Positions 3,652-38,271 of a stretch of 64,000 nucleotides of DNA are shown here, piece after piece (position 1 is the first letter of the stretch; each line of letters opens with the position of its first letter). Under the pieces are notes generated by a model. That model saw only the letters and a program-made list of their open reading frames with translations, did not search any database and was not told the origin of the DNA. The translations under genes and the position numbers were made by a program. Source of the stretch: Tepidanaerobacter acetatoxydans Re1 (GTDB lineage: Bacteria; Bacillota; Thermosediminibacteria; Thermosediminibacterales; Tepidanaerobacteraceae); NCBI RefSeq assembly GCF_000328765.2, contig NC_019954.2:686501-750500 (forward strand), in the 5' to 3' direction.

Positions 3652-4647
3652 ATGAGATATAAGGCAGTTAAAGTGGAAAAAGGTCCGGGAGGATGGGGAG
3701 GGCCTTTAGTAATAAGGCCCGTTGAAGGTAAAGATAAGATAGTATCAATTACCGGAGGCGGCATAGATTCTGTGGCACGCAGGATTGCTGAGATGACCGG
3801 TGGTGAGGCTATCGACGGTTTTAAAACATCGGTGCCAGATGAGCAGATATGCTGTGTAGTTATTGATTGTGGCGGAACAGCCAGGTGTGGTGTCTATCCC
3901 AAAAAACGCATTCCCACCATTAATTTAACACCGGTGGGGCAGGTAGGACCACTGGCAAAATATATTGAAGAAGACATATATGTTTCAGGTGTTAAACAGG
4001 AAAATATATTTTTTGTATCCGAACTGGAGACTGAGAATTATGTTAAAGCGGAAGGAATCCCAGAATTTGGCGAGGCTCAAGAAGCGACAGTATACAAGAC
4101 AGAATATGCTAAAAAGCCAGGAATCATAGAAAGAATTGGCAGAGGCATGGGCGGAGTAGTTGGGATTTTTTATCAATCAGGTCGTGAAACAATTGACCAA
4201 ATCATCAAAAATGTGCTTCCATTTATAGCTTTTGTTGCAACGTTAATAGGTATTATTTTAAAATCCGGCGTGGGTGACTGGATAGCAAATACCATTGCAC
4301 CTTTTGCAGGAAGTTTGCCAGGATTATTGATTATTTCACTTGTTTGTGCGATACCTGTATTATCACCTTTGCTAGGGCCGGGAGCTGTAATTGCACAGGT
4401 TGTAGGTGTTTTGGTCGGTGTTGAAATCGGTAAAGGGAACATACCTCCACAGTTTGCTTTGCCGGCACTTTTTGCCATAAATCCCCAGGTTGGATGTGAC
4501 TTTATTCCCGTAGGCTTAAGCCTTGGAGAAGCAAAGCCTGAAACAGTTGAGATTGGCGTAGGTGCAATACTTATTTCACGGTTGATAACCGGACCGATTG
4601 CGGTATTAATTGCCTATGTTTTTAGTATAGGTCTATATACTGGATAA
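3652..4647 (+). CDS. srlE: PTS glucitol/sorbitol-type EIIBC component
   Basis: A 331-residue protein. The N-terminal EIIB domain (about residues 1-150) contains [17 protein letters not shown]. One of its cysteines is the phosphorylation site that receives phosphate from EIIA. The C-terminal half (about 180-331) has five or so membrane helices and forms the second part of the translocation channel, with [21 protein letters not shown] and [20 protein letters not shown] being characteristic. The start ATG at 3652 has GGAGG nine bases upstream. The length fits the family. The stop is followed by a perfect hairpin before the EIIA gene, which may set the ratio of membrane to soluble PTS parts. Confidence 0.92.
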
Positions 4648-14998: not shown

Positions 14999-15123
14999 TC
15001 TATAGTAAAGAAATGATGTAAAGTGACTTCAAGGTATTGAACTTAAAAAATCAAGAGATATATCACAATGAGTAGCATCTATAATAAAAGGCAACTAAAG
15101 TTTTTTATGGAGCGGTGATTCTA

Positions 15124-16146
15124 ATGTCTGTAACTATATATGATGTAGCAAAGAAAGCCGGAGTTTCAATAGCTACCGTATCAAGAGTTTTGAATAAAAG
15201 CAGTGCTGTTTCGGATAGAACTCGGCGGCAAGTTGAAGAAGCTATCAAAGAATTAAACTATGCACCGAATTTTATAGCATCTGCATTAACAAAAAAATCA
15301 ACTTTAACTTTGGGTCTTTTAATTCCTGACATCACAAACCCCTTTTTTTCTGAGTTAGCCAGGGGAGTTGAGGATGCCAGTAATGATTTTGGATTTAATA
15401 TTATAATATGCAATACAGATTATAGTCTTGAAAAAGAAGCCACATATATAAGTCTTTTAAAACAAAAAAGTGTTGATGGATTTATCATTTCAACAGCATA
15501 TTATAATGACAAGAATATCATTGAACTGCTAAAAGATAACGTGCCATTGGTACTTTTAGGAAGAGATATCGACTGTTCCGAAGAATATCCCATGGATGCA
15601 GTAGTATCCGATAATATTAAAGGTGGGTATATTGCTACGAAACATTTGATAGATTTAGGCCATGAAAAAATTGCATGCCTTTTGGGACCGGCAAAGATAA
15701 AAGTTAACTTAGAAAGAGAAAAGGGATACCTAAAAGCTATGAAAGAAGCAAAGCTTAAAGTTTATAAAGAAATACTAACACATGGAGATTTCAAACTTGA
15801 ATTTGGATATAAAGAAGCACTTAGAATATTTAAGGGTTCGATTAGACCCACTGCATTTGTTACCGGCAATGACCTTACAGCTCTTGGCGTAATGAGAGCA
15901 CTAAAGACAATTGGTCTTTCTGTGCCACGAGATGTATCGGTTGTTGGGTATGATAACATAATCTTGGCAGAAATGTCAGACCCGCCGCTAACTACCGTTA
16001 ATCAACAGATGCAGAAAATGGGTTATTTAGCAACAGAGCTTCTTATAAAAAGAATAAAAGGTGAGAGAAATGCAGGCAAAAAAGTTGTTTTAGATATTAA
16101 TCTTGTAGTTCGAAAATCGACAAGCAAAGTGCCTTCGACAAATTAG
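15124..16146 (+). CDS. LacI-family transcriptional regulator (probable inositol regulator)
   Basis: A 340-residue LacI/GalR regulator. The N-terminal helix-turn-helix is TIYDVAKKAGVSIATVSRVLN. The periplasmic-binding-protein-like sensor domain includes LGLLIPDITNPFFSELARGVE and ends with DPPLTTVNQQMQKMGYLATELL. A GTG at 15115 is in frame, but the ATG at 15124 matches the usual family N-terminus and has a better-placed GGTGA, so I use it. Related operator sites lie upstream of this gene and upstream of the following transporter/inositol operon. The regulator therefore probably represses both until an inositol-type ligand binds. The ligand is inferred from the neighbours only. Confidence 0.88.
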   Translation: MSVTIYDVAKKAGVSIATVSRVLNKSSAVSDRTRRQVEEAIKELNYAPNFIASALTKKSTLTLGLLIPDITNPFFSELARGVEDASNDFGFNIIICNTDYSLEKEATYISLLKQKSVDGFIISTAYYNDKNIIELLKDNVPLVLLGRDIDCSEEYPMDAVVSDNIKGGYIATKHLIDLGHEKIACLLGPAKIKVNLEREKGYLKAMKEAKLKVYKEILTHGDFKLEFGYKEALRIFKGSIRPTAFVTGNDLTALGVMRALKTIGLSVPRDVSVVGYDNIILAEMSDPPLTTVNQQMQKMGYLATELLIKRIKGERNAGKKVVLDINLVVRKSTSKVPSTN

Positions 16147-16189
16147 AATACTAAATTTAAGATATTAAAATCTGACGATGAGATTTTTT

Positions 16190-16240
16190 AAAGGCTACCT
16201 GTTTTATGCTTTATAAACATAGTATACGGCAGCCTTTTTT
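16190..16240 (+). terminator. Terminator after the lacI-type gene
   Basis: AAAGGCT-A-CC pairs with GG-C-AGCCTTT (one mismatch) around a long AT-rich loop and is followed by six T's. It separates the regulator from the transporter operon. Confidence 0.75.
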
Positions 16241-16394
16241 AATTAAATAATTAAATGAATTAACAAAAAATAAAATATAGCAACTTAAATCATAAAAAAT
16301 TAATTAAATTATTTTTTTAAAAAAGAAGGACAAATCAATTTTATGTAGAATAAAATAAATATAAGTACCTAATTTTTAATTTTGTTATTTAAAA

Positions 16395-16408
16395 TGTAAG
16401 GGCTTACA
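16395..16408 (+). promoter_or_regulatory. Palindromic operator TGTAA-N4-TTACA, upstream copy
   Basis: TGTAAGGGCTTACA has 6-bp perfect arms. It shares the TGTAA-N4-TTACA layout with the site at 16508-16523. A possible -10 box, TATACT, follows at 16415-16420. Confidence 0.6.
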
Positions 16409-16507
16409 AATAATTATACTATTAGGGGATGTCTTAACTATTCTAAAACAAAGCAATAAAAACAAAAATTTATCAGAACATCATAGACGTTATATTTTTA
16501 TACAAAA

Positions 16508-16523
16508 TTGTAACCGCTTACAA
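16508..16523 (+). promoter_or_regulatory. Palindromic LacI-type operator, downstream copy
   Basis: TTGTAACCGCTTACAA has perfect 6-bp arms around CCGC. It lies 113 bases after the other site, spacing that would allow DNA looping. The rest of the region 16524-16915 contains no gene I can support. The leader before the first transporter gene is long, about 390 bases from this site. Confidence 0.65.
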
Positions 16524-16915
16524 TAATCTTAATAATTTTTTTTTACAAGTATCAAGTAATGAAATACTTTAAGTTCGATAGCAATATGTCAAGTCTTAAG
16601 ATTACAAACTAAATGAACTTACAGGTTCATTTCACAAAAAGCTTGTTATCCAAAAACATTAGCATTAGAAAAATAAGCTAACTACATACCTGATTCGTAG
16701 TATCACATTGATTAAAAAATCCGTTTTCAAGTTTAACCATTAAATTCAAAACATTTTAAACTATTTTTATAGAGCTTCAATGCATTAGCCGTTCAGCATG
16801 ATAATACGGTGTGGCCAAAAAATATAACTGGCTGTAATGAATAATCATAAGAGGAGGGATTGTAGAGGATTATAGTGCAAAGGATGCAAACTTTACTAAA
16901 AAATTAATAGGGGGA

Positions 16916-17923
16916 ATGAAATTGAAAACAAAGCGGTTTAAAATGTTAAGTTTGATAGTCGGGATTACGCTAATTTTTTTACTTATTTCTGGATGCGGCC
17001 AGCAGCAAGAATCTCAGCCTAGTGACAGTGAGCAGGTACCACAACAAGAAGCAGAAGAACCCATAAAAATCGGAGTTGTTGTCAAAGCATTAAACAGTGA
17101 TTTTTGGAAAACAGTAGAAGCTGGAGCAAAAGCTGCGGGAAAGGATTTAGGTATAGAAGTCGAAGTTTTGGGACCATCGGCAGAAACTGCTGTATCAGAG
17201 CAAATAGATATGATTGAAGACCAGATTACCAAGCGAGTATCTGCTTTAGCTGTGGCGCCTTCACAACCAGCATCGGCAATTCCTGTATTTGACCAAGCTA
17301 AAGCTGCCGGAATACCTGTTGTGCTAATAGATACAGATGCTCAATGGGATGACAAAGTTAGCTTTGTGGGAACAGGAAACTACAATGGAGGTAAGCAAGC
17401 AGGAGAATTTATAGCAGAAAAATTAGGTAAGGGTGGAAAAGTTGTAATACTTAGAGGAGCTGTAGGGGATCCAACTCATGATGAAAGGTCAAATGGTGCT
17501 ATTGAAGTTTTAAAAGAAAAGGGATTGGAAATACTTGATATTCAACCAGCCAACAGTGAAAGAGGCTTGGGAATGACTGTAATGGAAAATATGCTTCAGG
17601 TTCACTCGGATATCCAAGGGATGTTTGCCACCAATGATGAGATGGCTTTAGGTGCCCTCAGAGCGATTCAAGCCGCGGGTAAAGAAATAATAACTGTTGG
17701 TTTTGATGGTTCGCCTGACGCATTAAAATCTATTGAAGAAGGAGAATTAACTGCATCTGTTGCACAAAATTCTTTCAATATTGGTTATCAAGGTGTTGTT
17801 GCAGCAGTAAAAGCTGTGAGAGGAGAAGCAGTTGATAAAAGGATAGACACTGGGACCAAAATTATTTCAAAAGACAACGTAAAAGAAGAACAACAAAAAC
17901 TAAAAGAAATTTTAGGTCAATAG
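16916..17923 (+). CDS. Ribose-type ABC transporter substrate-binding lipoprotein (probable inositol binding)
   Basis: A 335-residue sugar-binding protein of the RbsB type. The N-terminus has a lipoprotein signal ending in the lipobox LISGC, followed by a Gln/Glu/Ser-rich linker. The mature domain begins IKIGVVVKALNSDFWKTVEAG. It contains PVVLIDTDAQWDD, VVILRGAVGDPTHDERSNGA and FATNDEMALGALRAI, matching the family's hinge and ligand-contact regions. The ATG has AGGGGGA before it. Inositol-binding proteins of other bacteria belong to this same family, and the downstream enzymes point to inositol. The ligand cannot be proved from sequence. A perfect hairpin after the gene may keep its mRNA abundant relative to the next genes. 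Confidence 0.88.
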   Translation: MKLKTKRFKMLSLIVGITLIFLLISGCGQQQESQPSDSEQVPQQEAEEPIKIGVVVKALNSDFWKTVEAGAKAAGKDLGIEVEVLGPSAETAVSEQIDMIEDQITKRVSALAVAPSQPASAIPVFDQAKAAGIPVVLIDTDAQWDDKVSFVGTGNYNGGKQAGEFIAEKLGKGGKVVILRGAVGDPTHDERSNGAIEVLKEKGLEILDIQPANSERGLGMTVMENMLQVHSDIQGMFATNDEMALGALRAIQAAGKEIITVGFDGSPDALKSIEEGELTASVAQNSFNIGYQGVVAAVKAVRGEAVDKRIDTGTKIISKDNVKEEQQKLKEILGQ

Positions 17924-17940
17924 GCTAATAATAGCATTGA

Positions 17941-17969
17941 TTCCAGGGAGCTTTTTAAGCTCCCTGGAA
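17941..17969 (+). repeat. Perfect intercistronic hairpin after the binding-protein gene
   Basis: A 13-bp perfect stem, TTCCAGGGAGCTT with AAGCTCCCTGGAA, closes a TTT loop. No T tract follows (ATAAAGGGG), so it is probably an mRNA 3'-end protecting element or partial attenuator, not a full terminator. Confidence 0.85.
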
Positions 17970-17986
17970 TAAAGGGGCGATTAAAA

Positions 17987-19486
17987 GTGACAAAGAAACC
18001 TTATCTTAAAATGAAGGGCATCTCAAAGCAATTTCCGGGTGTGATAGCACTTGATTCGGTAAATTTTGAAGTTGCTAAAGGCGAGGTTCATGGTCTTGTA
18101 GGCGAAAATGGTGCTGGAAAATCAACTCTGATAAAGATATTGACCGGAGCTTATGAAAAAGATGAGGGTCAAATTTATATAGACAATAAAGAGATACATA
18201 TATCAAATCCTAAACAGGCGATCGACATGGGAATTGTCGCTATATATCAAGAATTGAATTTAAGTCCGCATTTTTCAGCTGCAGAGAATATTTTTCTTGG
18301 GCAAGAAATAAAAATGGGGAATGTTATTAATTTTATTGATTGGAAAGCAACAAAAAGAGAAGCGATGCGTCTTTTAAATGAATTGGGTCAGGATTTAGAT
18401 ATTAATATACCCGTAAAGCAATTAGGTATAGGTCAGCAGCAAATGGTAGAAATAGCTAAGGCATTATCAAAAAATGCTAATATTATTATAATGGATGAAC
18501 CAACCTCAAGCTTAAGTCTAAATGAAACTGAAGAATTATTGAAAGCTATTGATAGATTAAGGGGAAAAGGAATTTCTGTCATATTTATATCGCATAGACT
18601 GGAAGAAGTTTTTGAAATATGTGACAGGATTACAGTCATGAGGGATGGTAAGAAAATAGTGACAGTAGAAGCTAGGGAAACTAATAAAGATGAGATTATA
18701 AAGTATATGGTAGGCAGAAGCTTAGAGCAGCAATATCCCAAAAAACCAACTAGGCGGGGTGCTGAGGCGTTAAGAGTAGAGAACCTTAAACGAGCGGGTA
18801 TTTTTGATGATATAAGCTTTGTTGCATATAGTGGTGAGATTTTAGGTATTTCAGGACTTGTAGGCGCAGGTAGAACTGAAATCGCTAGAAGTATTTTTGG
18901 TGCTGATATAAGAGATAAGGGTGATATTTATGTTTATGGGAAAAAGTGTAATATTTTATCTCCTAGAGATGCAATGAAGGAAGGAATAGCTCTTTTGACT
19001 GAAGACAGGAAAGGACAAGGCTTAATTTTACAACAAGATATAGTAACCAATATTACACTGCCTAGTTTGCCAAGATTCAAGGAAAAATTTTTTATTGATT
19101 TAAAAAAACTATTCCTCGCATCAAAAAGTTTATCAGAAGAATTAGATATAAAAACGCCGTCACTATACAAAAAAGTAATGGAATTAAGCGGTGGAAATCA
19201 GCAGAAGGTGGTAATTGCAAAATGGCTTTGTTATAATGCAAGAATTTTTATTTTTGACGAACCAACGAGGGGCATTGATGTAGGTGCGAAAGTTGAAGTA
19301 TATAACATAATGAATGAGCTAGTATCTAATGGCGCATGCGTTATAATGATATCTTCTGAACTTCCTGAAATTTTAGGTATGAGTGATAGGATTATTGTAT
19401 TACATGAAGGAAGAATAACAGGTGAATTTTCTCGAGAGAATGCCAATCAAGAAATAATCATGAAAGCTGCAACTGGAGGTGTGTAA
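17987..19486 (+). CDS. Ribose-type ABC transporter ATP-binding protein (two ATPase domains)
   Basis: A 499-residue protein with two fused ABC ATPase domains, as in RbsA. The first has Walker A GENGAGKST, signature LGIGQQQMVEIAKAL, and Walker B with MDEPTSSLS. The second has the degenerate Walker A GLVGAGRTE, signature LSGGNQQKVVIAKWL and DEPTRGIDVG. The degenerate second site is normal in this family. It begins with GTG at 17987 behind AAAGGGG. It energises the transporter whose binding protein and permease flank it. The permease gene starts five bases after its stop. Confidence 0.93.
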   Translation: MTKKPYLKMKGISKQFPGVIALDSVNFEVAKGEVHGLVGENGAGKSTLIKILTGAYEKDEGQIYIDNKEIHISNPKQAIDMGIVAIYQELNLSPHFSAAENIFLGQEIKMGNVINFIDWKATKREAMRLLNELGQDLDINIPVKQLGIGQQQMVEIAKALSKNANIIIMDEPTSSLSLNETEELLKAIDRLRGKGISVIFISHRLEEVFEICDRITVMRDGKKIVTVEARETNKDEIIKYMVGRSLEQQYPKKPTRRGAEALRVENLKRAGIFDDISFVAYSGEILGISGLVGAGRTEIARSIFGADIRDKGDIYVYGKKCNILSPRDAMKEGIALLTEDRKGQGLILQQDIVTNITLPSLPRFKEKFFIDLKKLFLASKSLSEELDIKTPSLYKKVMELSGGNQQKVVIAKWLCYNARIFIFDEPTRGIDVGAKVEVYNIMNELVSNGACVIMISSELPEILGMSDRIIVLHEGRITGEFSRENANQEIIMKAATGGV

Positions 19487-19491
19487 GAATT

Positions 19492-20496
19492 ATGAAAGTT
19501 GAGTCTAAAGCAGAAAAAAATGTAGTTCAAGAAAATCAGCAACAAAGCGAAAAAGTTACAAGTTTTTTTTCGCAAATAGGATCAATGGCTGGGCTAATCG
19601 TTCTATTCATATTTTTATCAATTGCCACCCCACACTTTTTTGAGGTAAAAAACCTCATGAACATTGCAAGACAATCAGCTATTAATAGCCTTGTGGCAGT
19701 GGGAATGCTTATGGCTATACTAACTGCAGGAATTGACCTTTCAGTAGGGTCAATCTTAGCATTATCTACTGTCGTGATGGGCATCCTAGTTGTGAAGTTA
19801 AACATGAGTCCTATTATTGGTATTTTAGCCTGTTTAGCCATGGGATCTTTGTTGGGCATTATAAATGGTTTGTTACTTACAAAACTGCACCTTCCTCACC
19901 CATTTATATCAACGCTTGGAATGCAAAACATATGTAGGGGTCTAGCATTAATAGCAACCAAAGCATCTCCTATTTCAGGATTTCCTCCAATTATTCAGTA
20001 TTTGGGCTCTGCTTTTTTAGGACCAGTGCCTGTTAGCTTTATATTAGTTATTGTTATTTATGTGGTTTTTCATATATTTTTAACCCGTACTGCCACCGGC
20101 AGACATATATATGCAGTTGGAGGTAATAAGGAAGCTGCAAGATTATCAGGCATCAACGTAGATGCAATACTGATAACTGTATATACACTTAGTGGTCTTA
20201 TGGCAGCTATGGGAGGTTTGATATTAACCGGAAGAGTCAATGCCGCATATCCACTAGCGGGTTTAGCATATGAAACAGATGCTATTGCCGCTGTGATCAT
20301 TGGAGGAGCAAGTTTTATGGGTGGCGTTGGAACGGTGTGGGGAACATTAATTGGTGCTATGATAATGGCGGTCTTGAGAAATGGCCTCAATCTTTTAGGC
20401 GTTTCTGCAGAATGGCAAACTGTTGCCATCGGAGCTGTTATTATTGGTGCGGTTTATGTTGACGTTATAAGAAGAAGAGCACAAGTTAAAAGTTAA
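19492..20496 (+). CDS. Ribose-type ABC transporter permease
   Basis: A 334-residue integral membrane protein of the RbsC family with eight to ten predicted helices. The first is at about residues 25-50. Marks are ILTAGIDLSVGSILALS, HPFISTLGMQN, TATGRHIYAVGGNKEAARLSGI and the late GGASFMGGVGTVWGTLIGA. It forms the channel for the sugar or inositol bound by the lipoprotein gene two upstream. It is followed by a 71-base gap with no terminator before the first catabolic gene, so transport and breakdown are probably one transcript. Confidence 0.92.
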   Translation: MKVESKAEKNVVQENQQQSEKVTSFFSQIGSMAGLIVLFIFLSIATPHFFEVKNLMNIARQSAINSLVAVGMLMAILTAGIDLSVGSILALSTVVMGILVVKLNMSPIIGILACLAMGSLLGIINGLLLTKLHLPHPFISTLGMQNICRGLALIATKASPISGFPPIIQYLGSAFLGPVPVSFILVIVIYVVFHIFLTRTATGRHIYAVGGNKEAARLSGINVDAILITVYTLSGLMAAMGGLILTGRVNAAYPLAGLAYETDAIAAVIIGGASFMGGVGTVWGTLIGAMIMAVLRNGLNLLGVSAEWQTVAIGAVIIGAVYVDVIRRRAQVKS

Positions 20497-20567: not shown

Positions 20568-21760
20568 ATGTCAAAAATGAAAGCGGTTACACTGTTTGCA
20601 GATTGGGACCCGCGTCCCGAATTTAAATTAGGGCCTAAGGATATTGAAGGGAAGCAGACCTATTTAGGGAGTAAAGTATGGAGAAACCCGCGTATAGAAA
20701 TTGTAGAGCACGACATACCAAAGCCGCAAAAAGGAGAAGTTCTAATAGAAGTTAAAGCATGTGGAATCTGCGGAAGCGATGTCCATATGGCTCAGCCGGA
20801 TGAAGATGGTTACATACTCTATCCCGGCCTTACAGGATTTCCTGCCATCTTAGGCCATGAACTTTCCGGAGTAGTAGTAGAAGCAGGCCCTGATGCAATT
20901 GACAAAAGAATAAATAAACCCTACAAAGGTGGCGAACTAGTAACAGCCGAAGAGATGATGTGGTGCGGCCAGTGCCAACCCTGTGCCGACGGGTGGCCCA
21001 ACCACTGTGAGAGATTAGATGAGATAGGCTTTAATGTAAACGGAGCATTTGCAAAGTATATTGTCTTACCGGCTAAACTCCTGTGGAGCTTAGAACCCTT
21101 GAAAGCACGATACAAAGAAGAAGACATCTTCCTTGCCGGAAGCCTCGTAGAACCCACATCTGTAGCATATAATGCCGTAATTGAGCGTGGAGGGGGAATA
21201 AGGCAGGAGATAATGTGGTAATATGCGGTGGTGGTCCCATAGGCCTTGCAGCATGTGCCATACTAAAAAGGCATGGAGCAGCCAAAGTAATTCTATCAGA
21301 ACCCTCTGTCGGTCGAGCAGAACTTGGCAAAAAATTAGGGGCTGATTACGTAATTGACCCGACAAAAGTAGACTTTACTGAAGAAGTACTACGACTTACA
21401 GACGGTTATGGGGCAAGCTTATATCTTGAAGCTACAGGATTACCCACTGCAGTGTATCCAGGAATAGAAAAAGCAATATGGGAAGGCAGGACATTAAATT
21501 CGACCATAGTAGTAGTTGCAAGAGCTGATGCCAAAATGCCTGTTACCGGTGAAGTATTACAAGTAAGAAGAGCAAGAATCATCGGAGCACAGGGTCATTC
21601 CGGCCATGGTACCTTCCCCAGAGTCATAGAATGTATGGCAAGTGGAATGGATATGACACCTATGATAACCAAGAAAATAAGCTTGGAAGAAGTGCCGGAA
21701 AACATAATTATGTTAAGAACAGATAGAAAAGAGTGCAAAATAACCTGTGTAATGGACTAA
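20568..21760 (+). pseudogene. iolM: Zinc-dependent dehydrogenase, scyllo-inosose 3-dehydrogenase type (IolM), with a frameshift
   Basis: Two overlapping reading frames together make one full-length medium-chain zinc dehydrogenase of about 396 residues. The first (20568-21221) has ACGICGSDVHM, GHELSGVV and the structural zinc cysteines CGQCQPCADGWPNHC. The second (from about 21215) has the NAD loop VICGGGPIGLAACAILK. At 21201-21210 the read is AGGCAGGAGA; inserting one C after position 21204 would give Arg-Pro-Gly-Asp-Asn-Val and restore a normal domain joint. In the Thermotoga route this enzyme oxidises scyllo-inosose to diketo-inositol. The break could be a real mutation, a sequencing error, or, less likely, a -1 ribosomal shift. 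An AGGAG five bases before the ATG at 21215 could also allow restart. Confidence 0.82.
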
Positions 21761-21788
21761 CAAATATTTTAACAAATAAATAAAAGCT

Positions 21789-21858: not shown

Positions 21859-22980
21859 ATGGAAAAACCAAAGGACAAAAAATGGATATTGACTGACAAT
21901 CCGGCCATAAAGTTTGAAGACAATACCGTAGGAAGGCTGAAAAAACAAATATGGGATGCAAGTGAAGAAGAGATAGATGCCATACTAAAAGAATACGATA
22001 TCCCATCGGAACCGGAACTAGGCAAAGCAGGCACATATATTCAAAATACTCCTAGAGTAAAAGTTATTGAAAAGCGCAGCAAAAATGATATAGTATTTGT
22101 ACCCATAGGATGTACAGAAAACCATGGCATGCATGCTAATTCTGGTCTTGACACATTCATGGTCACACAAATTCTAGAAGGTGTCCGCCGATACACTGCA
22201 AAACAGGGAAGAGAAGTAAGCCTTGCTTTCCCACCGCTAAACTACGGCGGCCATCCATACCACCACCTTGGCATGCCTGGCACAGTTATCATGCCAAAAG
22301 AGGTAGTAGAAGAAACCATCATATATATGATGTTAGGACTGTGGAATGACGGCTTTAGGAAAATAATCTTAGTAAACAATCATGGACATCTGTGGATGCT
22401 AGAATCAGCTATACAAGAATTCATGAAGAGATTCCAACTTCCGGGAATATTCCAGGTATTAGACTGGCATAGGGCCGTTAGAGAGTTTTTCTATCCTACA
22501 GACAGAGAAGACAGCCTAGAGACACACTTTGTCCACGCAGACGAAGCCGAGACTTCAGTAGGACTATTACTTTTCCCTGACATGATTGACATGAGTGTAG
22601 TAGAGGATGCCGAAGGTGAATCATTCCTTCCAGATGGCCACTTTGATAAATCAGTAGACCCCTTTGGAAGACCCCATCGCTGGTCTGAAGGCGAAGGTCA
22701 TGCTGCCATAGAACGGGCCGCTACACCTCAGGGAGTTGTAGGTAAACCAAGCATAGCCTCAGTTAAAAAGGCAAAACGTCCTATCGCTGCAATACTAAAA
22801 TACTTGACTCTAGTACATGACCAGATTCTAGATGCCTTCCCGGCGGGAACAGTGCCACCGGTAGAAAAAATTACATTGCGAACCGAAAAAGAGATGGAGC
22901 CGTTTTTGAAAGAACCCTTCAGCGAAGGTTGGAAATCTGTTTATGAACTGCCGCCTATGGGAGTATTCTATAAATTATAA
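21859..22980 (+). CDS. iolN: Creatininase-family hydrolase, 3-dehydro-scyllo-inosose hydrolase type (IolN)
   Basis: A 373-residue member of the creatininase family. Metal-binding segments are VPIGCTENHGMHANSGLD near residue 83 and HADEAETSVGLLLFP near 230; NNHGH near 173 is also typical. In Thermotoga maritima the homologous enzyme opens the ring of diketo-inositol to give 5-keto-L-gluconate. The assignment here rests on family plus context: it sits between an IolM-like dehydrogenase and IolG- and IolO-like genes behind a ribose-type transporter. The ATG has GGAGAT before it. The N-terminal extension of about 70 residues before the conserved core is longer than in creatinine amidohydrolase. 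Confidence 0.82.
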   Translation: MEKPKDKKWILTDNPAIKFEDNTVGRLKKQIWDASEEEIDAILKEYDIPSEPELGKAGTYIQNTPRVKVIEKRSKNDIVFVPIGCTENHGMHANSGLDTFMVTQILEGVRRYTAKQGREVSLAFPPLNYGGHPYHHLGMPGTVIMPKEVVEETIIYMMLGLWNDGFRKIILVNNHGHLWMLESAIQEFMKRFQLPGIFQVLDWHRAVREFFYPTDREDSLETHFVHADEAETSVGLLLFPDMIDMSVVEDAEGESFLPDGHFDKSVDPFGRPHRWSEGEGHAAIERAATPQGVVGKPSIASVKKAKRPIAAILKYLTLVHDQILDAFPAGTVPPVEKITLRTEKEMEPFLKEPFSEGWKSVYELPPMGVFYKL

Positions 22981-23108: not shown

Positions 23109-24116
23109 GTGAAAAAAATTAAAGTAGGATTAATTGGAGCAGGAAGAATAGGAAGATTTCACGCCGAAACTATCAAAGCTAATGTAGACTTTGTAGAGAT
23201 TAAATCTGTTGCAGATATATTTGCTGAAAATATCAAAGATTGGGCAGAAAATCTTGGGATAAAAAATGTCTATAAAGACGCAAACGAAATATTAGAAGAC
23301 AAGGAAATAGATGCGGTTCTCATATGCTCATCAACCGATACACACTCTCAATTAATTATAGATTCGGCAAAAGCAGGTAAACATATTTTTTGTGAAAAGC
23401 CCATTGACTTTGACTTAAATAGAATACATAAAGCCCTAGATGAGGTAGAAAAAGCAAATGTTAAATTACAAATAGGCTTTCAACGAAGATTCGATCCCAG
23501 CTTTAAACGAGCACATGATATTATAAGAGCAGGCAAAATAGGCGAACCTCACATATTAAAAATTACTTCACGTGACCCCAGTCCACCACCGATAGAATAT
23601 ATTAAAGTATCTGGTGGCATCTTTTTAGATATGACTATACATGACTTTGACATGGCAAGATTTTTAATTGGAAGTGAAGTTGCGGAAGTGTTTGCTACCG
23701 GAGAAGTAAGAGTTGATCCGGAAATCAAAAAAGCAGGAGACATTGATACTGCCATTGTTACGCTAAAATTTTCAGACGGCACCATAGGCGTCATAGATAA
23801 TAGTAGAAAGGCCGTTTACGGCTATGATCAAAGAGTAGAAGTATTTGGCTCAAAAGGAAGCATAGCTGTGAATAATGACCATTTAACAAATACTGTATTA
23901 AGCAATGAAGACGGAATTATAAGCCACAATCCCAAGAACTTTTTCATGGATAGATACAAAGATGCATACATAGCTGAAATTAAGGCGTTTTGCGATAGCA
24001 TATTAAATAATATCAAGCCTCTTGTAACAGGCAAAGACGGCCTTGAACCGGTAATTATCGGCCTTGCTGCAAAAAAATCACTTGCTGAAGGAAAACCGAT
24101 AAAAATAGAAAGATAG
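23109..24116 (+). CDS. iolG: Gfo/Idh/MocA dehydrogenase, inositol 2-dehydrogenase type
   Basis: A 335-residue NAD-dependent dehydrogenase. The N-terminal Rossmann domain has GLIGAGRIGRFHAE, and the family motif CEKPIDFD lies near residue 97 with the catalytic-type lysine. The C-terminal domain has QIGFQRRFDPSFKRAHDII and GGIFLDMTIHDFDMARFL, in which the histidine and aspartate are the usual active-site residues. These match myo-inositol 2-dehydrogenase, which makes scyllo-inosose (2-keto-myo-inositol). It starts with GTG at 23109; GGAGGAG lies eleven bases upstream. The next gene begins 12 bases after its stop. Other sugar dehydrogenases share the fold, so the substrate is context-supported, not proven. 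Confidence 0.85.
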   Translation: MKKIKVGLIGAGRIGRFHAETIKANVDFVEIKSVADIFAENIKDWAENLGIKNVYKDANEILEDKEIDAVLICSSTDTHSQLIIDSAKAGKHIFCEKPIDFDLNRIHKALDEVEKANVKLQIGFQRRFDPSFKRAHDIIRAGKIGEPHILKITSRDPSPPPIEYIKVSGGIFLDMTIHDFDMARFLIGSEVAEVFATGEVRVDPEIKKAGDIDTAIVTLKFSDGTIGVIDNSRKAVYGYDQRVEVFGSKGSIAVNNDHLTNTVLSNEDGIISHNPKNFFMDRYKDAYIAEIKAFCDSILNNIKPLVTGKDGLEPVIIGLAAKKSLAEGKPIKIER

Positions 24117-24127
24117 GTGTTTATAAA

Positions 24128-24934
24128 ATGAAGCTCAGCATTACCATGGCAAAAGAAGCGGCTAAGAATGCACCGATTGTTTTAAGGGGCAGCTATACTG
24201 AAAACATTAAAAAGGCAGCAAAAATGGGATATGATGCGGTAGAAATTCATGTAAATGGCCCAAATACATTGGATATCGAGGAGATACAAAAGGATTGCGA
24301 AGAAAACAATATTGTAGTTTCTACTATCGGAACAGGAATGGGCTATGGAATTGACGGGTTAAGCTTTACAGATCCGGACGGCACTGTTCGAGACAGGGCT
24401 GTAAAGAGGATATTCGATCATATTTGCACTGCTAAAGAACTTGATGCAAAAGTAATAATAGGTTCAATGAGAGGTACAATTGCCGATACAAATGACCGTA
24501 AAAAATATGAAGAATATGCACTTAAATGCTTTGACAAGATTATGAACTCTGCAGAAAAAAATAACGTAATTATACTAAATGAAGCAATAAATCGATATGA
24601 AACCAACTTCATTAATAATATTGAAGAAAGCCTTGAATTTATTGAGAAAATAAATTCACCATATCTCAAGCTGCACTTAGATACATTTCATATGAATATA
24701 GAAGAACAGGATATGGTAAAAAGTATATTGAAAGCAGGAAAATCCTTAGGCCATTTCCATTTTGCCGATAGCGACAGGTGGTACCCTGGCCATGGCCATG
24801 TAGACTTTAAAAGCATTATTAAAGCACTAAAGGACATAAGCTATGATAACTATATAGCCTTTGAATGTCTGCCACTTCCTACACCTGATGAAGCTGCGAG
24901 AAATTCCTTAAGAAACATTAGGCCTTTATTATAA
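24128..24934 (+). CDS. iolO: Xylose-isomerase-like TIM barrel epimerase, 5-keto-L-gluconate epimerase type (IolO)
   Basis: A 268-residue sugar-phosphate isomerase/epimerase-family TIM barrel. Metal ligands can be read in NEAINRYETNF, LHLDTFHMN and HFADSDRWYPGHGHVDF. In the Thermotoga inositol route the homologue epimerises 5-keto-L-gluconate to D-tagaturonate. Here it closes an operon containing transporter, IolM, IolN and IolG homologues, which supports that role. Enzymes that would use tagaturonate (reductase, dehydratase, KDG kinase and aldolase) are not in the window. IolE/IolI-type inositol enzymes have the same fold and are the main alternative. Confidence 0.78.
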   Translation: MKLSITMAKEAAKNAPIVLRGSYTENIKKAAKMGYDAVEIHVNGPNTLDIEEIQKDCEENNIVVSTIGTGMGYGIDGLSFTDPDGTVRDRAVKRIFDHICTAKELDAKVIIGSMRGTIADTNDRKKYEEYALKCFDKIMNSAEKNNVIILNEAINRYETNFINNIEESLEFIEKINSPYLKLHLDTFHMNIEEQDMVKSILKAGKSLGHFHFADSDRWYPGHGHVDFKSIIKALKDISYDNYIAFECLPLPTPDEAARNSLRNIRPLL

Positions 24935-35656: not shown

Positions 35657-36284
35657 TATAAATTATGATGAAAAAGGTCTAGTCCCTGCCGTGGTTCAAG
35701 ATGCGAAAAGCAAAGAAGTCCTAATGGTTGCATATATGAATGAAGAATCATTAAAAAAAACCATTGAAACAGGAAAGGCATGGTTTTACAGCCGTAAAAG
35801 AAAAAGCCTTTGGCAAAAGGGAGAAACCAGTGGCAATGTTCTTGAAGTTAAAAGTATTTTTTATGATTGCGATAAAGACACATTACTTCTAAAAGTAGAT
35901 GCAAAAGGGCCTGCCTGTCATACTGGGCATAATTCTTGTTTTTATCGCAGTTTGTCAGATATTCAAGATAGCGATAATGAAAAAGACGAACCGCAGGAAA
36001 ATACGCTAAATTTTTTAAATGAGTTAGTAGATATAATTGATTCGAGATTTGAGGAAAAGCCGGAAGGTTCATATGTGGCAAAACTGTATAATGGCGGTAG
36101 GGAGAGAATATTGAAAAAGGTCGGTGAAGAAGCCGCAGAAGTTGTAATAGCATCCATGAGCCAAGACAAAGATGCGACAATATATGAATCCGCCGATTTA
36201 TTTTTTCACATGTTAATTGCACTACGATATGACGGAATAACAATTGAGGAAGTTATAAATGAGCTTAAGAGAAGGCATAAGTGA
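35649..36284 (+). CDS. hisIE: Bifunctional phosphoribosyl-AMP cyclohydrolase / phosphoribosyl-ATP pyrophosphatase
   Basis: A 211-residue fusion. The N-terminal HisI domain (about 1-105) has [30 protein letters not shown] and the zinc-type [13 protein letters not shown]. The C-terminal HisE domain (about 120-211) has [29 protein letters not shown] in shorter conserved blocks and a helical end. It carries out steps two and three of histidine synthesis. It overlaps hisF by eight bases and ends the operon. A strong promoter for the tRNA cluster starts six bases after its stop. Confidence 0.96.
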
Positions 36285-37205: not shown

Positions 37206-38114
37206 GTGAGAATACTGTCAATAGGTTCTATTAAACCTGTAGAAGGTTTTGAAGATAGATTGAAATTGGAATTGGACCTTTTAAGTAAACAAGGATTTAA
37301 TGTAACCCTGAAAAAGAATTATAAAGGTAATGCCGTATTTTTTTATTGTTATATAGAGGATGAGATAATATTAAAAGACAATCATTATGAAAATATGCGG
37401 CAAATATTTGTTAATTCTATAGCTAATGCACTTTCAGATATTGTAATGGATTATTGGGAACCGATTTTGATTAAAAAAATCATAAGAGATAACTACTTTT
37501 ATTTCAATGAAATCGAGCAAAACCGAATATACGATTTCACGATGGATATTGCAAACAGCGGTGAGTTAAATTTAACTCAAGATACCTCGAGCAAAGTAAA
37601 ACGTAAGATTTGCGTAGTACATAAAATTAGAGAATATCTTGCAGATAATAATATAATTATGTTGGATGGTTTTATTGACTTTCGCTTGAGAGAATATATG
37701 GAACAGTTGGAAGAGTTGGTGGACACAGCTATTGATGAGTATCTTATTGATAGGGAGTATAAGGAATTTATAGACTTACTTCGCCATTTCATCGACCTCC
37801 AAGAACCTAAAAAAGATTTAGTTAATGTGGTATTTTGCAATACCAAAATAATACTGATGGATGAAGACTCTAAATTTATAGAGAATGATTTGAGTTTGGA
37901 TTTACTGGCACAGGAAAATACTGAAGTAAGTACAGATGACATAGTTGTAAGCACATTGATAAATATAGCTCCAAGGAAAATCATTATCCATGGGTTTACT
38001 GGAGAAGATAAAATAGAAGTTATTAATACCATTTATAATATTTTTGAAGGACGAATACACTTTTGCAATAGCTGTAATATATGCCTGCAATCAAAACCTT
38101 TAACGACAAAGTAA
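37206..38114 (+). CDS. ytxC: YtxC-family putative sporulation protein
   Basis: A protein of about 302 residues that resembles the YtxC family found in endospore-forming Firmicutes. Recognisable parts are IFVNSIANALSDIVMDYWEP, RKICVVHKIREYL, FIDFRLREYMEQLEELVD and the terminal APRKIIIHGFTGEDK. The molecular role is not known; the family is named from its link to sporulation. A GTG at 37197 is in frame but overlaps the ribosome binding site AAAGGAG; the GTG at 37206 is correctly spaced. In related genomes it also lies upstream of thrS, as here. A strong terminator overlaps its stop codon. Confidence 0.85.
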   Translation: MRILSIGSIKPVEGFEDRLKLELDLLSKQGFNVTLKKNYKGNAVFFYCYIEDEIILKDNHYENMRQIFVNSIANALSDIVMDYWEPILIKKIIRDNYFYFNEIEQNRIYDFTMDIANSGELNLTQDTSSKVKRKICVVHKIREYLADNNIIMLDGFIDFRLREYMEQLEELVDTAIDEYLIDREYKEFIDLLRHFIDLQEPKKDLVNVVFCNTKIILMDEDSKFIENDLSLDLLAQENTEVSTDDIVVSTLINIAPRKIIIHGFTGEDKIEVINTIYNIFEGRIHFCNSCNICLQSKPLTTK

Positions 38115-38135: not shown

Positions 38136-38271
38136 CTATTGAAAGTATGCTATCATAGTTAAGATTGCATTAAAGCTAATTTTAAATATTTTGCTTGAAC
38201 TTTAGTTAGAACTTCAGTTAGAACTTATCTTATTATTTAGAATTTTAAATCGGAAAAATGGTGATACTTTT

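Follow-up and report, generated by a model that had tools for sequence, protein, structure and literature searches.

A one-base frameshift in iolM of Tepidanaerobacter acetatoxydans Re1 is very probably an assembly artefact

The iolM gene of Tepidanaerobacter acetatoxydans Re1 lies within a stretch of 64,000 nucleotides (positions 686,501 to 750,500 of NC_019954.2), referred to here as the window, and in the deposited sequence it is split between two reading frames by a single missing base. Very probably the frameshift arose in base calling or in the consensus and is an artefact of the assembly, since rpoC, a gene that is present as the only copy and is indispensable to the cell, is likewise broken by one base in it. 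The deposited sequence would have dropped one C from a short run of C in iolM, with the living cell most likely carrying an intact gene of ~397 codons, and the inositol operon is probably intact.

Results

Reading frames of iolM and the site of the break

The first open reading frame of iolM runs from the ATG at 20568 to a stop at 21219-21221 (217 aa), and the -1 frame is open for the second half of the gene, ending at 21760. Alignment to the relatives places the gene one base short at ~21203-21206. The features of the gene, in window coordinates, are:

20568-21203, + strand: iolM first half in frame 0, zinc-dependent dehydrogenase GroES-like domain (Pfam ADH_N; NCBIfam NF041097 positions 1-205)
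21203-21206, + strand: site of the missing base, where most relatives encode Arg-Pro-Gly-Asp
21206-21760, + strand: iolM second half in the -1 frame, nucleotide-binding domain and C-terminus (Pfam ADH_zinc_N; NF041097 positions 207-388)

An earlier note on this DNA had put the two halves of the enzyme in different frames at this place, with a required shift of -1 and with one missing base that would restore Arg-Pro-Gly-Asp, and the reading frames and the alignment bear this out. Scored apart against NF041097, the NCBIfam model of IolM, the first half gives 307.7 bits and the second 205.8 bits, the curated full-length cut-off being 450. As both halves match one model at complementary positions, the split is not a matter of chance. 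The break falls between the Pfam matches ADH_N and ADH_zinc_N.

The genes around iolM

The neighbouring iol genes, which the same note had described as intact, are all open, as are the regulator and importer genes upstream:

15115-16146, + strand: LacI-type regulator, open (ORF; named by eye from its translation)
16916-20496, + strand: sugar-type ABC importer genes, open (ORFs; named by eye from their translations)
21859-22980, + strand: iolN, open, 3-dehydro-scyllo-inosose hydrolase (NCBIfam NF041098, 312.6 bits, cut-off 245)
23109-24116, + strand: iolG, open, inositol 2-dehydrogenase (NCBIfam TIGR04380, 488.4 bits, cut-off 355)
24128-24934, + strand: iolO-like, open, 5-keto-L-gluconate epimerase (NCBIfam NF041099, 293.6 bits, slightly below the cut-off of 300)

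Thus iolN, iolG and an iolO homologue adjoin iolM, the first two scoring above their cut-offs and the third slightly below. Judged from these matches, IolM would act as the scyllo-inosose dehydrogenase in an inositol route made up of IolG, IolM, IolN and IolO, and Re1 probably encodes this part of the route. For the inositol pathway in Thermotoga, PMC3750489 and PMC5931981 cite a 2013 paper by Rodionova and others. The main text of the Re1 genome paper reports five gene remnants and has no mention of inositol, pseudogene or frameshift (PMC4374699). A second genome of the genus (G001) gave no match to iolM when searched, and the distribution of the gene in Tepidanaerobacter is thus patchy.

IolM is read in one frame in its relatives

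We compared 71 non-self loci, comprising 66 IolM orthologues with both halves, four paralogues of less than 60% identity and one partial locus with one half. All 66 orthologues, which reduce to 60 distinct records once six duplicates are removed, are in a single frame across the site of the break. Stops were flagged in 12 of the 66 and were traced to ends drawn past the match; over the matched extent 65 have no stop, the exception being a Sediminispirochaeta MAG (L036). Its iolM has an in-frame TAG at 3878-3880, where the relatives have Trp, and this is not at the break site.

The nearest relative is iolM of Tepidanaerobacter sp. EBM-38 (MPOT01000042.1), with ~95% DNA identity. It was retrieved as two loci (L070 and L003) that are identical over iolM and were taken as the same record, and it sits in 13.5 kb collinear with the Re1 window. 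In EBM-38 the gene is an unbroken frame of 397 aa, whereas in Re1 it is broken.

If iolM were truly one base short, it might be expressed as two chains, the second being started from a GTG behind an AGGAG, with translational coupling to the first-half stop codon:

21205-21217, + strand: putative internal restart in the frame of the second half, AGGAG (21205-21209), 5 nt, GTG (21215-21217)

A restart of this kind had been proposed from an AGGAG with an ATG at 21215. The AGGAG is present, but 21215 is the start of a GTG, and the ATG, at 21213, is read in the frame of the first half as part of Ile-Met-Trp-stop. The GTG would be in frame 5 nt after the AGGAG, a chain begun there would share 7 nt with the first-half ORF, and a split between two Pfam domain matches could suit a protein made as two chains. 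However, in iolM the AGGAG and GTG are parts of ordinary codons, one relative (L031) has an identical AGGAG and GTG inside an unbroken gene, EBM-38 lacks both, and the gene is unsplit at this site in all 66 relatives. Taken together, this makes two separate chains extremely improbable.

It is similarly hard to credit a programmed -1 ribosomal frameshift that joins the two halves, even though the direction required is -1, a run of five G is present (21192-21196) and a slippery heptamer is half matched at 21191 and at 21194. The stretch in which such a shift could work, from the last -1 stop (21182) to the stop of frame 0 (21219), contains no complete X XXY YYZ heptamer. The fold of the 93 nt that begin at 21198 is ordinary, with 99 of 200 shuffled sequences doing as well (z 0.08). 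The G run is shared with EBM-38, whose gene is unbroken, and with 66 of 66 IolM loci in one frame the split is not conserved. The programmed frameshift was therefore rejected on heptamer, downstream structure and conservation alike.

Other one-base frameshifts in the assembly

The window and twelve further stretches of the genome were aligned to EBM-38, 244,058 columns altogether. Frameshifts in genes other than iolM are:

rpoC, G000:C1 ~207080 (L131 ~7080): one C missing (alignment to EBM-38)
rpsM, G000:C1 ~226358 (L181 ~6458): GG to G (alignment to EBM-38, family match)
rpsK, G000:C1 226512-226520 (L181 6612-6620): A8 to A9 (alignment to EBM-38, family match)
ecfA-type ATPase, G000:C1 ~229874 (L181 ~9974): CCC to CC, near the ATP-binding loop (alignment to EBM-38)

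The gene for the RNA polymerase beta prime subunit, rpoC (NCBIfam TIGR02386, rpoC_TIGR), lies in two frames, split at about residue 520, and lacks one C that EBM-38 has. No second copy of it turned up when the whole Re1 genome was searched, and to our knowledge no bacterium lives without rpoC. Here, then, is an indel of the same kind, in the same assembly, in the sole copy of a gene essential for life. This case is decisive, and the argument rests on rpoC alone. S13 and S11 are core ribosomal proteins, and as the assembly breaks rpsM and rpsK as well as rpoC, its one-base frameshifts are not to be trusted.

For a systematic screen, EBM-38 ORFs of at least 120 aa, with at least 95% of their length matched and at least 85% identity, were picked mechanically, which gave 221 ORFs including spurious ones and some repeats from overlapping stretches. 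Sixteen were flagged as disrupted in Re1, and three of these are clear genes, iolM, rpoC and ecfA, each one C short. Those set aside were ten whose only breaks are in the opening 24 codons or in the final codon, two entries for a single gene that aligns poorly (eleven out-of-frame gaps at 86% identity) and one spurious ORF without a family match, which when followed by hand led to rpsM and rpsK. The five frameshifted genes are a lower bound, with rpsM and rpsK lying outside the systematic screen.

In the reverse control, in which 212 Re1 ORFs were sought in EBM-38, 21 were flagged, and once the first 10% and last 5% of each ORF were disregarded, none of them showed a lone out-of-frame gap. Two of those flagged have an internal stop without a gap (L131_5926, which is antisense inside rpoC, and L183_5313), L187_19226 has several internal gaps, L133_15943 has a compensating internal pair and a gap near the start, and the remainder break close to the end of the ORF.

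Within the window, over 53,394 columns (with overlapping pieces counted twice), the iolM indel is the sole net out-of-frame difference from EBM-38 that falls in the interior of a clear gene, which means that errors are not crowded in this part of the genome. The window indels set aside were those at 15039-15100, 24899, 26401 and 38210-38232 (at ORF ends or the alignment end), at 21780 (only antisense ORFs between genes), at 37389 and 37394, which cancel, and at 35976 and 54424, which are three bases long.

Sequencing platform and type of error

The Re1 genome analysed here (GCF_000328765.2, NC_019954.2) is one contig of 2,761,252 bases. The published final sequence of the strain, HF563609, is given as 2,761,252 bases (PMC4374699), and the analysed assembly would appear to be this one. 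HF563609 was obtained from Ion Torrent PGM reads assembled with Newbler (PMC3587937), and its gaps were filled with mapping of reads to the published NC_015519, as the genome paper has it (PMC4374699).

According to a study of PGM errors, A/T insertions or C/G deletions are the commonest of the high-frequency indels, and those that are strand-asymmetric are mainly deletions of C and G, with 82% located in two- or three-base runs, while homopolymers hold only 29% of all high-frequency indels (PMC3623719). In Re1, four of the five gene-breaking indels are the loss of a C or G from what in EBM-38 is a two- or three-base run, the fifth being an added A; in iolM the loss is of one C where relatives have CC or CCC. 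Over all isolated one-base gaps relative to EBM-38, C/G bases were lost 22 times and gained 12 times, and A/T bases lost 40 times and gained 29 times. This bias is moderate, and weaker than that of the five gene indels; many of the isolated gaps lie outside genes and probably represent real divergence.

Selection on iolM and a divergent tract

A different explanation is that a real and very recent deletion of one base has inactivated iolM, in which case the inositol route would stop at the second oxidation. The deposited letters do show a deletion, and because iolM is not essential a true mutation would look identical. Nor does the genome hold a close paralogue that could replace it: the best-scoring other matches have only 42% identity over 81 residues for the second half and 36% over 135 residues for the first, and a second IolM as a substitute was accordingly rejected. 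We nevertheless consider a real deletion unlikely. The breaks in rpoC, rpsM and rpsK make any one-base frameshift in this assembly untrustworthy, iolM has no second lesion, the genes beside it are open, and there is no decay past the break, where Re1 and EBM-38 differ by 35 synonymous and 2 nonsynonymous changes. Ahead of the break there are 13 synonymous and 4 nonsynonymous differences. The coding sequence past the break is thus under strong selection, and an old pseudogene, in which selection is relaxed, was rejected on the same count. The pattern is unlike that of a long-dead gene and would be compatible with a very young one.

The differences between the two iolM genes are not evenly spread:

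21188-21419, + strand: divergent tract in iolM with many synonymous differences from EBM-38 (88.4% identity, versus 97.6% before it and 96.1% after it)

Nearly all of the differences in the tract are synonymous. Of the 55 differences, 26 fall in one 230-bp stretch, and such clustering was reached in none of 5000 trials that placed the differences at random among third codon positions, in a test that was designed once the cluster had been seen. From its sequence the tract looks like a recombined segment. Its polarity was assessed with strain GT38, in which nine sites are like the window, 13 are like EBM-38 and five are like neither, giving no clear recipient lineage. Gene conversion from a paralogue was rejected, as a DNA search of the Re1 genome gave iolM itself as the only match. 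Elsewhere in the window, the region of the regulator and ABC transporter (15382-20081) is closer to EBM-38 than the regions flanking it: its 4,700 bp hold only 22 differences, and ten of these are concentrated in 17482-17581.

The divergent tract has the missing base close to its 5' edge. We read this closeness as coincidence, with the mosaic tract probably separate from the indel, yet nothing else hints as strongly at a real event. It counts towards a recent deletion, and one could also imagine that recombination with a diverged Tepidanaerobacter allele, over the ~230 bp of the tract, lost a base near the edge and at the same time supplied the AGGAG-GTG restart, with a metal-binding and an NAD-binding chain then assembling into a working IolM. 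That sequence of events is extremely improbable.

Discussion

The explanation that we favour, an error in the deposited sequence, takes the indel in iolM to share its cause with that in rpoC. Three readings had been offered at the outset: a disabled pathway, a wrong read, or expression rescued in the cell. The evidence points to the wrong read, the frameshift being like those in rpoC, rpsM, rpsK and ecfA, and rescue by a programmed -1 shift is unsupported, with no full slippery heptamer in 21182-21221 and an ordinary fold downstream.

With an artefact in place of a real feature, the biology of the strain would be unchanged. The wider consequence is a warning that a one-base frameshift in this assembly is no basis for calling a pseudogene, and claims of gene loss for Re1, a model strain for acetate oxidation, need to be checked against the independent assembly NC_015519.

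In its family match and setting the Re1 gene resembles the IolM described by NCBIfam, a scyllo-inosose 3-dehydrogenase: it matches the model and adjoins homologues of iolN, iolG and iolO. It differs in being split by one missing base, with each half below 450 bits. The best-scoring solved relative of the first half is a zinc-containing alcohol dehydrogenase (PDB 3ip1, E 3.1e-98), which is a single chain of 404 residues, whereas in the Re1 assembly IolM is in two parts. With the errors reported for the PGM the iolM indel shares the deletion of a C or G in a run of two or three; those errors, as PMC3623719 describes them, were seen in reads compared with the reference genomes of other species, whereas the case in Re1 concerns the assembly of another genome.
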